Shown here one piece after another: positions 22,280 through 27,247 of a DNA stretch of 64,000 nt (positions within the stretch are counted from its first letter, which is position 1; the number at the start of each line of letters is the position of its first letter). The position numbers were made by a program, and so were the translations under genes. The DNA comes from Pseudomonadota bacterium (GTDB lineage Bacteria; Pseudomonadota; Alphaproteobacteria; Rhizobiales; Beijerinckiaceae): NCBI GenBank assembly GCA_020161575.1, contig JAIUNR010000006.1, forward strand, positions 186,001 through 250,000, written 5' to 3'. The notes under the pieces were generated by a model that worked only from the letters and a program-made list of their open reading frames with translations, had not been told where the DNA came from and did no database searches.

Positions 22280-22564
22280 TCAGATCAGAAAGTCTGCTCG
22301 CGCAAGGATGTGCAGGTCTGTGGCCGTTGGATACTCGACTATTGTCGGATTGACTAAACGATTCTTTTCTATTTTTTCTGCTAAATTGAGATACTCATTA
22401 GCAATTTCCTCGAGGATTTCACAGAATTCTCCTGCCTCCTGCACTTTTGATATGTCTTGAACGTATCCTTCGAGCATGATCTCTAGGCTTTGCACTTGAA
22501 TCAACTGCGATTTTACGGAGGTAATCAGCAAATCCAGGCCCATTTCGGTGTTCTTCTGTGCCAT
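22280..22564 (-). CDS. hypothetical small acidic helical protein in AT-rich DNA
   Basis: A 94-residue ORF with no family I recognise. The predicted product is almost entirely helical and acidic in the middle (EFCEILEEIANEYLNLAEKIEK, about 46-67), with a hydrophobic heptad pattern compatible with a coiled coil, and a less ordered C-terminus. No signal peptide or TM helix. Base composition is visibly lower in GC than the flanking genes and codon use includes many A/T-ending codons, which suggests recent transfer. Its stop is adjacent to the convergent hdaA stop (no intervening base). ATG 22564 is preceded by a GGGG stretch that may serve as ribosome-binding site. Confidence 0.6.
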   Translation of the reverse strand: MAQKNTEMGLDLLITSVKSQLIQVQSLEIMLEGYVQDISKVQEAGEFCEILEEIANEYLNLAEKIEKNRLVNPTIVEYPTATDLHILARADFLI

Positions 22565-23598: not shown

Positions 23599-23638
23599 TT
23601 GACAGGGTCGGAAACGCGCTCTAGAACAAAACAAGAAC
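23599..23638 (+). promoter_or_regulatory. sigma70 promoter with overlapping LexA (SOS) box
   Basis: A -35 TTGACA (23599-23604), exactly 17 bp, then a -10 TAGAAC (23622-23627). The sequence GAAC-AAAACAA-GAAC (23624-23638) is the direct-repeat LexA box of alphaproteobacteria (GTTC-N7-GTTC read on the other strand) and overlaps the -10 and the expected start of transcription near 23634. LexA bound here would block initiation, so downstream genes (micropeptide and dnaE) should be DNA-damage-inducible. The motif match is direct; regulation is inferred. Confidence 0.8.
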
Positions 23639-23663
23639 ATTATGTCGCGAGCGGAGCTGGATG

Positions 23664-23765
23664 ATGCGGGCTGTGGAAGACATGATCGAGCTGGCTTCGA
23701 TCGGCGCGTTTTTCGTTATGATGGCGGTGTGGAGCGGCGTGACGACGAATTGGCCGCTGGTCTGA
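23664..23765 (+). CDS. SOS-controlled single-pass membrane micropeptide (SidA-like candidate)
   Basis: Short ORF of 33 codons (34 if the ATG three bases earlier at 23661 is used). GGAG at 23653-23656 is 7 bases before ATG 23664, favouring that start. The peptide has a short charged N-terminus (Arg2, Glu5, Asp6, Glu9), one hydrophobic helix (about residues 10-26, rich in Ala, Phe, Met, Val and ending in Trp-Ser-Gly), and a short tail TTNWPLV. It lies about 27 bases after the inferred start site of the LexA-controlled promoter and 17 bp ahead of dnaE. Size, topology and SOS control resemble Caulobacter SidA, a 29-residue inner-membrane inhibitor of division acting on FtsW. Homology is not established; it could be a leader peptide for dnaE. 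Confidence 0.62.
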   Translation: MRAVEDMIELASIGAFFVMMAVWSGVTTNWPLV

Positions 23766-23782
23766 AGAGAAGGAAATACGCG

Positions 23783-26700
23783 ATGACGAAGGGACCTGGC
23801 TTCGTCCATCTGCATGTTCATTCCGCCTTCTCCCTGCTCGAGGGGGCGCTTCCCATCGCCAAGCTCGCAAAGCTTGCCGCTGCGGACAAGATGCCAGCGC
23901 TGGCGCTGACGGATACGAATAACCTCTTCGGCGCGCTTGAATTTTCCGAGAAGCTCGCGGGGTCGGGCATCCAGCCGATCACCGGCATCGAGATGATGGT
24001 TGATTTCGGCGATCGGCCTATCTACCGGAACCGGCCCAATTCCGTCCTTGAGGGGCGTGGATCCCTTGTCCTGCTCGCGGCGACGCCCGAGGGCTATGCC
24101 AATCTGATGACGCTCTCGAGCCGTGCCTTCATGGAAACACCGTCACAAGACGGCATTCATCTGCCGGTTTCCGCGCTCGCGGGCCGCACCGATGGATTGA
24201 TTGCGCTGACTGGCGGCGGGATCGGCCCCGTCGACCGGGCTTTCGGAATCGGTGGGGTCGATCTGGCCCGTGCGCGGCTTGGCACGATCCGGGATCTCTT
24301 CCCGGACAGGCTTTATGTCGAGATCGAGCGGTTCGGCTTGCGCGAGGCGCAGAGGATAGAAACACGCCTCATCGACCTCGCAGTGGACGCAAAACTCCCG
24401 CTGGTCGCCGCCAACAACGTCTATTTCGGCTCGGCGGCGGATTTCGAGGCGCATGATGCCTTGCTCTGCATTGCGGGCGGGGTGTCCGTCGAGGAGGCGG
24501 AAAGGCGTCGGTTGACGCCGGAGCATCGTTTCAAGACGCGCGCAGAAATGTCTGAGATATTTTATGATATTCCTTTCGCGCTGGAGGCGAGCGTGGAGAT
24601 CGCGCAGCGCTGCCGGCAACGTCCGCGCACCCGCAAGCCGATCCTGCCGCGTTTTACCCTGGGAACCGACGAAGGTGCGGAAGCCGCCGAGTTGAGGCGG
24701 CAGGCGGAGGAGGGGCTGGCCGCGCGTCTTGCCGCGCATGGGCCGGCGCCTGGCCTCTCGGTGGCGGAATACGAGGAGCGGCTTGCCTTCGAGCTTTCCG
24801 TCATCGAGCGGATGAAATACCCAGGTTATTTCCTGATCGTCGCGGATTTCATCAAATGGGCCAAGGCGCAGGGCATTCCGGTTGGGCCCGGTCGTGGCTC
24901 GGGTGCGGGGTCGCTTGTCGCTTGGTCGCTCACCATCACCGACCTTGACCCTCTGCGCTACGGCCTCTTCTTCGAGCGGTTTCTCAACCCGGAACGTGTC
25001 TCCATGCCGGATTTCGACATCGATTTCTGTCAGGAGCGGCGCGACGAGGTTATCCGCTATGTTGTCCGGCGCTATGGCACGCAGCAGGTCGCGCAGATTA
25101 TTACCTTCGGTTCCCTGCTCGCGCGCGGCGTCATGCGTGATGTCGGGCGCGTGCTCGGCCTTCGCTACAGCGAGGTCGACCGCCTGACCAAGCTGGTGCC
25201 GCAGAATCCCGCCAATCCGATCACGCTTGAGAAGGCGATCGAGGAAGAGCCGCAGCTGCGCGCGGCCGCCGCCGAGAACGAGGCGGTGGGGCGCATGCTC
25301 GATATCGCCCAGAAGCTGGAAGGGCTCTACCGCCACGCCTCGACCCATGCCGCCGGCATCGTCATCGGCGATCGGCCGCTTGATCAACTCGTGCCGCTCT
25401 ACCGTGATCCGAAATCGGATATGCCCGTCACCCAGTTCAACATGAAATGGGTGGAACCGGCGGGGCTGGTGAAATTCGACTTTCTTGGTCTCAAGACCCT
25501 CACTGTCCTGCAAGGGGCGGTGAACCTGCTGGCGCGACAGGGGCGGGAGGTCGACCTGCTCAAGATCCCGCTTGATGATGCGCCGAGCTACGCCATGCTC
25601 TCGCGCGGGGAAACGGTTGGCGTGTTCCAGGTGGAATCGGGCGGCATGCGGCGCGCGCTCGTTGATATGAAGCCTGACCGGATCGAGGATATCATCGCGC
25701 TTGTGGCGCTCTACCGGCCGGGGCCGATGGCGAACATCCCGGTCTATTGCGATGTCAAGCACGGGCGCCGCGCGGCGGATTACGCGCATCCCATGCTCGA
25801 ACCGATCCTCGAGGAGACCTGCGGCGTCATCGTCTATCAGGAACAGGTGATGCAGATCGCCAAGGTCATGTCGGGCTATTCGCTCGGCGAGGCGGATATG
25901 CTCCGCCGCGCCATGGGCAAGAAGATCAAGGCCGAGATGGACGCGCAGCGCGCTCGTTTCGTTGAAGGCGCCAAGGCGAACAACGTCACGGAGGCGGATG
26001 CCGACGCGATCTTCGACCTGCTCGCGCGCTTCGCGGATTACGGCTTCAACAAGTCCCACGCCGCTGCCTACGCCCTCGTCTCCTACCAGACCGCCTATAT
26101 GAAGGCGAATTATCCGGTGGAATTCCTCGCGGCGTCGATGAGCCTCGAGCTTTCCAATACCGACAAGCTGGGCGAGTTCCGGCGCGAGGCGCACAGGCTC
26201 GGCATCCGGGTCGAAGCGCCGGATGTCAACCGCTCCGATGTCACCTTCGACGTGCGTGGCGGTGCGATCCTCTACGCGCTCGCGGCGATCAAGGGGGTGG
26301 GGAGCGAGGCAGCGCGCTCCATCGTCGTGGCGCGCGGAGACAAGCCTTTCAAATCGCTTGCGGATTTCGCACGGCGGATCGATCCGCGCCTGCTCAACCG
26401 CCGCACGCTGGAGCAGCTTGTCGGCGCTGGCGCGCTCGACAGCCTCGAAGCGAACCGGGGAAAGCTGGTCGCCGGGCTCGATGCCATTCTCGCCGAAGCG
26501 AACGCACATGGCCAAGAGGTGGCGAGCGGGCAGGGCGGCCTCTTCGGCGGCGGCGAGGGGGCACCGCTCGTGCTGCCGGATGCCCCACCGCTGACCTTGC
26601 CGGAACGTCTGCGGCGCGAGCATGCCGCCGCCGGTTTCTTCCTGTCAGGCCATCCGCTCGATCAGTTCGCGGATCTGCTGGAACGCGCGCGGATCGGCGA

Positions 26701-27247
26701 TTTCGCGGCCTTTGCACGTTCGGCGCGCGAGGGGGCAAGTCATGCGCGCATTGCGGCGACGCTGCTCGACATGGATATCCGCCGCACGCGCAACGGCAAC
26801 AAGATCGCGATCCTCTCGCTTTCGGACCGTTCGGGCCAGTTCGAGGCGATGCTGTTTTCCGAAATGCTGGTGAAGCATCGGGCGTTGCTGGAGCCGGGAA
26901 CACCGCTTTTCGTCACGATTGCCGGCGCGCTGGAGGGGGAGGAACTACGCGTGCGCATCCTTGAAATGGAGGCGCTTGAAAAGGCGCTGCAACGCACGCA
27001 GCGCGGGCTCCGCATCTTCGTCTCCGAGCAGGCTTTCGCCAATGCGGCGCGGCTCGGCGCCGAATCGCCTGCTGCGGGATTGCAAAGGGCCCTGACCAGG
27101 GGGAGCGATGGCGAGGTCGCGGTCTCGATCATGCTGTCCGATGGCGGGGAGGTCGAGCTGACCCTGCCGGGACGCTATGCGTTGGGCAGCGAGAGGATGA
27201 CGTCGATTTCCGCGCTGCCGGGCATTCTCGATGTGAAGCCGTATTGA
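23783..27247 (+). CDS. dnaE: DNA polymerase III alpha subunit (DnaE1)
   Basis: Replicative polymerase catalytic subunit, 1154 residues. Domains in order: PHP (HLHVHSAFSLLEGA at the start; DTNNLFG), palm with catalytic aspartates in MPDFDIDFC, fingers (CGVIVYQEQVMQIAKVMSGY), tandem HhH, OB-fold (about 960-1060) and C-terminal tau/clamp-interacting part. The length favours DnaE1 over the shorter error-prone DnaE2/ImuC, and no imuA/imuB are nearby. ATG 23783 has AAGGA 8 bases upstream; the frame open back to 23642 would read through the micropeptide in another frame. It follows an SOS promoter, so damage-inducible transcription is likely in addition to any housekeeping promoter. Precedes rpsB, as in related genomes. 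Confidence 0.95.
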   Translation: MTKGPGFVHLHVHSAFSLLEGALPIAKLAKLAAADKMPALALTDTNNLFGALEFSEKLAGSGIQPITGIEMMVDFGDRPIYRNRPNSVLEGRGSLVLLAATPEGYANLMTLSSRAFMETPSQDGIHLPVSALAGRTDGLIALTGGGIGPVDRAFGIGGVDLARARLGTIRDLFPDRLYVEIERFGLREAQRIETRLIDLAVDAKLPLVAANNVYFGSAADFEAHDALLCIAGGVSVEEAERRRLTPEHRFKTRAEMSEIFYDIPFALEASVEIAQRCRQRPRTRKPILPRFTLGTDEGAEAAELRRQAEEGLAARLAAHGPAPGLSVAEYEERLAFELSVIERMKYPGYFLIVADFIKWAKAQGIPVGPGRGSGAGSLVAWSLTITDLDPLRYGLFFERFLNPERVSMPDFDIDFCQERRDEVIRYVVRRYGTQQVAQIITFGSLLARGVMRDVGRVLGLRYSEVDRLTKLVPQNPANPITLEKAIEEEPQLRAAAAENEAVGRMLDIAQKLEGLYRHASTHAAGIVIGDRPLDQLVPLYRDPKSDMPVTQFNMKWVEPAGLVKFDFLGLKTLTVLQGAVNLLARQGREVDLLKIPLDDAPSYAMLSRGETVGVFQVESGGMRRALVDMKPDRIEDIIALVALYRPGPMANIPVYCDVKHGRRAADYAHPMLEPILEETCGVIVYQEQVMQIAKVMSGYSLGEADMLRRAMGKKIKAEMDAQRARFVEGAKANNVTEADADAIFDLLARFADYGFNKSHAAAYALVSYQTAYMKANYPVEFLAASMSLELSNTDKLGEFRREAHRLGIRVEAPDVNRSDVTFDVRGGAILYALAAIKGVGSEAARSIVVARGDKPFKSLADFARRIDPRLLNRRTLEQLVGAGALDSLEANRGKLVAGLDAILAEANAHGQEVASGQGGLFGGGEGAPLVLPDAPPLTLPERLRREHAAAGFFLSGHPLDQFADLLERARIGDFAAFARSAREGASHARIAATLLDMDIRRTRNGNKIAILSLSDRSGQFEAMLFSEMLVKHRALLEPGTPLFVTIAGALEGEELRVRILEMEALEKALQRTQRGLRIFVSEQAFANAARLGAESPAAGLQRALTRGSDGEVAVSIMLSDGGEVELTLPGRYALGSERMTSISALPGILDVKPY

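Follow-up and report, generated by a model that had tools for sequence, protein, structure and literature searches.

A conserved micropeptide gene behind an SOS-type box upstream of dnaE, a probable SidA ortholog outside Caulobacter

Immediately ahead of dnaE in an alphaproteobacterial genome, an open reading frame (ORF) of only 33 codons follows what looks like a damage-regulated promoter. The question this locus raises is whether the ORF is a gene at all and, if so, what its product might do. We approached it in a window of 64,000 nucleotides, which is the whole stretch of DNA that was analysed, and then in the surrounding genome, genus, order, and class. A sequence-only reading of the window had described a −35 hexamer, a 17-bp spacer, a −10 hexamer, a GAAC-N7-GAAC box lying over the −10, a GGAG, and a 33-codon hydrophobic ORF, and all of these were present as claimed (Table 1). 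Our comparisons indicate that 23664-23765 is a genuine micropeptide gene, kept under selection and preceded by an SOS-type box. Judging from sequence, we estimate a probability of about 0.78 that it is the sidA ortholog of this genome, whose product would impose an SOS-induced block on septation via an FtsW-type target.

Table 1. Features of the micropeptide and dnaE locus, in window positions
Feature	Position	Strand	Basis
−35 hexamer TTGACA	23599..23604	+	read from sequence
−10 hexamer TAGAAC	23622..23627	+	17-bp spacer separates −35 and −10
LexA-type box GAACAAAACAAGAAC	23624..23638	+	GAAC-N7-GAAC, overlaps −10
Shine-Dalgarno-like GGAG	23653..23656	+	7 nt ahead of ATG 23664
SidA-like micropeptide gene, 33 aa + stop, MRAVEDMIELASIGAFFVMMAVWSGVTTNWPLV	23664..23765	+	ORF reading, conservation, profile match to Caulobacterales peptides
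dnaE (DNA polymerase III alpha), probable start ATG 23783	23783..27247	+	Pfam DNA_pol3_alpha E 2e-102, PHP E 3e-34

One account of the locus would be that a chance ORF happens to lie behind a chance LexA-like box, and the bare GAAC-N7-GAAC pattern is indeed expected about 1.5 times per window. It was seen once, compared to 1.54 expected per 64 kb, and at least one copy occurred in 83 of 100 shuffles. Genome-wide, the bare box was found 83 times and its reversed control 75 times, a barely higher count. Because the window and genome counts hardly exceeded the control, we rejected the bare box as single-genome evidence.

The conservation of the locus, however, argues strongly against chance. We found dnaE in 15 of 17 same-genus genomes, and the peptide was present in those 15, adjoining dnaE; the two genomes with neither were 78 and 83% complete. 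The strict box lay ahead of the peptide in all 15 loci, with TTGAC 24-26 nt ahead of the box in each. In tblastn searches with the single sequence, the 15 same-genus matches were clear (E 2.5e-4 or better), and matches beyond the genus were weak, the best reaching an E of 0.005. Codon-level conservation in relatives had been set beforehand as the check on the proposed gene, and this is what we observed. Across 29 aligned codons of 15 distinct same-genus sequences, the in-frame pN/pS was 0.47, whereas the two alternative frames gave 1.02 and 0.93. In 300 column shuffles, the ratio averaged 0.93 and never fell below 0.48. Selection acts on this ORF at the level of codons, and it is more than chance. 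With pN/pS well below 1 in frame only, and with the pair of box and peptide recurring in the genus and the order against controls, we rejected the chance ORF, the probability of which we consider negligible.

SOS control had also been claimed, and it was borne out at the level of sequence by the boxes in all same-genus loci and by an A-rich spacer class to which the boxes of recA, rmuC, and ssb/uvrA also belong. The A-rich spacer pattern, GAACAWWWNWWGAAC, was written post hoc, after the genome-wide box listing, and has seven perfect sites in the genome. Six of these lie upstream of dnaE, recA, and rmuC, in the ssb/uvrA region (between ssb and uvrA), and at a radical-SAM gene and a VOC-like gene; the seventh is at C1:368856. 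Pfam confirms RecA, RmuC, SSB, and radical SAM at the A-rich box genes, and the VOC-like protein had no Pfam match at E 1e-10; the names UvrA, VOC-like protein, and ImuA were assigned by eye. A site with one mismatch, GAACATAAAGTGAAC, lies ahead of an imuA-like frame on the same contig as the second IMS (imuB-like) match. Taken as sequences, the A-rich spacer sites look like a real class of box. The box in the window would thus be the counterpart, at sequence level, of the LexA-controlled promoter that characterizes SidA, and is likely a site at which LexA represses the promoter in vivo. As a side observation, the radical-SAM gene (L034, C7:178110) and the small VOC-like gene (L035, C7:229568) look like SOS genes of their own genome because perfect A-rich LexA-type boxes are found there.

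The start of the peptide can be read in two ways. An alternative ATG at 23661, one codon earlier, would give 34 aa, with GGAG only 4 nt ahead compared to 7 nt for the 33-aa start, which has the better spacing; MRAV opens 9 of the 14 peptides from the rest of the genus. The prediction of a single hydrophobic helix held up, as the maximal 17-residue hydropathy of the window peptide is 1.91 and a single-sequence AlphaFold2 model of the 34-aa form consists of one helix at residues 2-33, with a mean pLDDT of 93.6. Such a model is expected for a peptide of this sort and is uninformative about its target. Its 33 aa, its hydropathy, and the model fit two traits of SidA, a size of ~29 aa and a single hydrophobic helix, which here would be a membrane helix. 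Searches of Pfam and NCBIfam at E up to 10 assigned neither the window peptide nor four relatives to any family, and tblastn of a plasmid collection with two members of the peptide family returned no match at E up to 0.05.

The stop of the peptide lies 17 bp from ATG 23783 of dnaE, and dnaE may therefore share SOS control via read-through. The longest dnaE ORF (23642-27247, 1201 aa) begins within the SOS leader and covers the micropeptide, though in a different frame. Because this extension frame is interrupted by stops in several same-genus relatives, the true dnaE start is probably ATG 23783, which is preceded by AAGGA; gene callers may mis-start dnaE at the window locus. Upstream of dnaE, between a DnaA/Hda-like ORF (named by eye) and a LysR gene, we also observed a minus-strand ORF of 94 aa (22280-22564) that is opposite to its neighbours and has no Pfam match above the cut-off.

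To follow the locus through the order, we compared 109 dnaE-upstream regions, comprising 15 from the same genus, 87 from a dnaE search, and 7 reached via weak peptide matches. The 87 were either hand-picked for family spread or supplied as loci by the dnaE search of 297 genomes, which covers about the best half of 295 matching genomes, best first. In this set, where nearer relatives are over-represented, the strict box was found at most 800 bp upstream in 86 of 109 dnaE regions and in 80 of the 102 that were chosen without the peptide, and three control patterns of the same form were found in none (0/109 and 0/102). A box in the opposite orientation, GTTC-N7-GTTC, was seen in 21 of 109 regions (21 of the 102 dnaE-chosen); these are perhaps second LexA sites.

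A hydrophobic ORF followed the box and ended before dnaE in 85 of the 86 boxed regions (the exception being L088), whereas on the other strand 188 of 1720 randomly placed points gave an ORF of the same definition. As listed, these ORFs have 30 to 85 codons, and they start 15-148 nt downstream of where the last box begins; in L097 and L110 the listed ORF starts at GTG or TTG and is long. The peptides have a common core of approximately E-D-x-A-A-L-A-S-L-x-L-F-x-A-M-x-x-V-W-A. The proposal of an SOS-controlled membrane micropeptide thus gained support well beyond the window. By hand tally, 20 of the 27 families sampled from the order contained one or more genomes with box and peptide upstream of dnaE, with f4 counted via a peptide-chosen locus only and f24 via a class-wide profile search locus only. 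In family f48 the peptide is present but a strict box is not, and families f2, f5, f19, f31, f37, and f39 lacked both a strict box within 800 bp and a convincing peptide. In the 23 regions that have no box, the order profile detected the peptide in L074 (where the contig is truncated), L117, L125, L148, L152, L153, and L127, although the profile was built from the same order and these detections are not independent.

Two further observations concern the arrangement of the locus. Two promoter designs were apparent. In the window's genus the box covers the −10 (15/15); of the 71 boxed regions belonging to other genera, 30 have TTGAC 8-11 nt ahead of the box, which would then fall in the spacer. 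In L127 (genome G146), the peptide-model match upstream of dnaE lies on the strand opposite to dnaE, within a longer open frame, an arrangement that is possibly an inversion.

Such a close association with dnaE could mean that the small ORF is a uORF, whose translation would set dnaE translation or transcription and whose peptide would have no role of its own. The short gap to dnaE in the window would suit this account, as would the nearness of the ORF to dnaE in many relatives, and a ribosome-profiling study of Sinorhizobium meliloti, which reports sORF25 in the 5'-UTR of dnaE1, suggests a uORF role for some such ORFs (PMC10117765). However, the conservation is at the amino-acid level, the distance between the stop codon of the peptide and the first aligned codon of dnaE ranges from ~10 to ~600 nt, and the match in L127 is on the strand opposite to dnaE. 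Furthermore, a genome from the same family as the window (G024) indicates that the gene can exist apart from dnaE. There, box and peptide (L174, C1:493231-493320, minus strand) are on the same contig as dnaE but ~1.36 Mb away from it, and the 800 bp ahead of this dnaE (L112) contain neither a strict box nor a notable peptide-model match. Given this distance, we argue that the peptide acts by itself and consider a uORF highly improbable.

Across the class as a whole, a profile search gave a match at E up to 1 in 155 of 387 genomes, most of them weak. We inspected 21 of 30 loci, all outside the genus, and found the strict box within 400 bp upstream in 12 (L173, L174, L175, L182, L184, L185, L188, L191, L193, L195, L196, and L198); the other nine look like chance and were rejected. 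Eight of the 12 boxed loci are outside the order and outside the Caulobacter-type family, and seven of these eight have dnaE downstream, with L193 ending too soon. Among 25 further class-search loci, four had a box and two of those four a model match, one of the two (L206) being from the window's own order. When dnaE regions were chosen across the class without the peptide, the box was found in 7 of 56, with a peptide-model match in one of those seven. Including four peptide-chosen regions raised this to 10 of 60, with a model match at E below 0.01 in four of the ten (L255, which was dnaE-chosen, and L283, L285, and L286, which were peptide-chosen). The hydrophobic ORFs that follow boxes in L228, L231, L243, L249, L258, and L270 are only possible members of the family. 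Outside the order and Caulobacterales, the evidence for the gene is patchy.

The likeness to SidA that the sequence-only reading had proposed gained support from a related Caulobacter peptide, which lies in the same place, is mostly 29 aa (the published length of SidA), and matches by profile. A C. crescentus CtrA sequence agreed with genome G763 at 231 of 231 residues, and the family of G763 was placed with Caulobacter. In this Caulobacter-type family, a strict box and then a hydrophobic ORF were found in 14 of 30 dnaE regions; 8 of these 14 ORFs have 29 codons as listed and 4 more have 29 codons from an inner ATG. The peptide models match 27 of the 30 regions.

We also examined named loci, the best 80 of 575 confirmed candidates, of which L318-L387 form a set of 70. 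Their titles are Caulobacter, Phenylobacterium, Brevundimonas, Asticcacaulis, and other Caulobacterales, with a few given only as Alphaproteobacteria, Proteobacteria, or Pseudomonadota. Within this best 80 of 575, a peptide-model match (E below 0.01) was found upstream of dnaE in 70 of the 70 loci, some of whose sequences had been used in building the model; 55 of the 70 had a strict box within 700 bp, and a scan with a simple motif recovered the peptide in 62, with exactly 29 aa in 53. C. vibrioides OR37 (L318) has both a 29-aa peptide and a strict box, and the position upstream of dnaE is common to the window and the loci titled Caulobacter (L318-L324, L327, L328, L330, L332, and L333). Loci L323, L324, L327, L335, L344, and L374, which have no strict box, carry one or two near-boxes (e.g., GAAC-N7-GAAT) in the same place. 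Ten more distant named loci from the best 80 of 575 gave L395 (Oceanicaulis) as the sole match, without a strict box.

Profile comparison connected the two groups of peptides. With hhalign, the same-genus profile matched the Caulobacterales profile at a probability of 90.2, aligning 24 columns ungapped from the first Met, which are the N-terminal 24 of 34 columns, and the order profile matched it at a probability of 94.9. The scores of 26.4 and 30.0 compare to 15-17 for the best shuffles, and neither plain (0/100) nor class-preserving (0/100) shuffling of the Caulobacterales columns reached the observed score with either query. In 60 of the 86 boxed regions, at ~22 fragments per region, a model built from Caulobacterales peptides only gave its top rank to the box-proximal ORF, and in the other 26 it did not; it placed the window peptide first in its own region with just 6.7 bits and an E of 0.73. 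On the strength of these profiles, the window-type peptides are homologous to the dnaE-upstream Caulobacterales peptides. We infer that the Caulobacter dnaE-upstream 29-mer is SidA, because its length, its LexA-type box and implied LexA control, and its single hydrophobic stretch all fit, as does the genus.

This homology bears on two further accounts of what the peptide does. TisB-type toxins are small, have a single hydrophobic helix, and are LexA-controlled, and the window peptide, which is compatible with all three, could be an SOS-induced membrane toxin of that kind, causing depolarisation and dormancy instead of inhibiting the divisome. The profile homology to Caulobacterales peptides argues against such a toxin, as does the published role of the 29-aa Caulobacter SOS peptide as a division inhibitor acting on FtsW (PMC4211646), and we regard it as very unlikely.

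The other account keeps the peptide in the same family of SOS membrane peptides and supposes a changed target in this lineage, which might be FtsN, FtsI, or a cell-wall complex of polar growth. The last of these is proposed because many members of the order are thought to grow from the pole. A changed target would be in keeping with an hhalign match that covers the N-terminal columns only and with a tail, GVTTNWPLV in the window peptide, that is conserved in only part of the genus. It would also have a parallel in DidA, another small Caulobacter membrane inhibitor, which acts on FtsN (PMC4211646). Yet the conserved part of the peptide is the very part common to the Caulobacter peptide, and we consider a changed target unlikely.

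We therefore favor the sidA ortholog as the identity of this gene, and the Caulobacter literature offers a model of how its product might work. SidA, an SOS-induced inhibitor of 29 aa located in the inner membrane, interacts with FtsW, and its suppressors in FtsW and FtsI point to a septal cell-wall complex that is held inactive (PMC4211646). In delta-lexA cells, it is the constitutive expression of sidA that causes filamentation (PMC12700426). By analogy, LexA over the −10 would keep the window promoter off. Upon DNA damage, RecA would trigger LexA cleavage and so permit a transcript that could run on into dnaE. The 33-aa peptide would then insert into the inner membrane as one helix and bind the FtsW/FtsI/FtsN septal cell-wall complex, most likely at FtsW as in Caulobacter, keeping the complex inactive so that division would wait for the end of repair. 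For this organism, we infer translation, membrane insertion, the target, FtsW binding, and division arrest from these comparisons.

More broadly, it seems reasonably likely that sidA is an ancestral alphaproteobacterial SOS checkpoint gene rather than a Caulobacter speciality. It would then lie immediately ahead of dnaE in the majority of the families sampled from the order, as well as in Caulobacterales and a small number of other lineages. If so, LexA controls a division brake and possibly, via the shared transcript, the alpha subunit of the replicative polymerase. The gene is easily overlooked because it mostly has ~30 to 45 codons and can sit inside an over-long dnaE call. In the open-licence papers that we searched, we found no statement of sidA upstream of dnaE or of a rhizobial SidA, and the damage-induced division inhibitors that the cited sources name for the class are Caulobacter's only, namely SidA and DidA, the latter SOS-independent. 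If true, a conserved family of dnaE-linked sidA genes would represent an SOS division checkpoint for rhizobia and their relatives that is directly testable, and it could account for the unassigned ORF within the 5'-UTR of S. meliloti dnaE1. It also raises the question of why a division inhibitor should be so persistently linked to the gene for the replicative polymerase.

Several known systems resemble the window peptide in part. sORF25 of S. meliloti, one of the novel sORFs from ribosome profiling and proteogenomics, occupies the same place relative to dnaE1, and a possible uORF role is the one function suggested there (PMC10117765); the terms SOS and DNA damage are absent from the main text of that paper. 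In the Gram-positives, YneA, SosA, and ChiZ are SOS-induced small membrane proteins that stop cells from dividing in response to DNA damage; YneA acts on FtsW, and low-confidence models place ChiZ, SosA, and SidA on FtsW as well, although SidA is modelled on the other side of FtsW TM7 than the Gram-positive inhibitors (PMC13396833). DidA of Caulobacter is likewise a small single-helix protein and a DNA-damage-induced division inhibitor, but it differs in having 71 aa, in being SOS-independent (via DriD), and in binding FtsN (PMC4211646). SidA of Caulobacter crescentus is the closest in kind, being a tiny single-helix peptide with a LexA-type box, and the Caulobacter peptide that we take as SidA has both profile homology to the window peptide and its position upstream of dnaE. 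The two differ in length, at 29 compared to 33 aa, and in their C-terminal tails. The window peptide is thus most probably a new member of the SidA kind, and its interest lies in how widely that kind now appears to extend.
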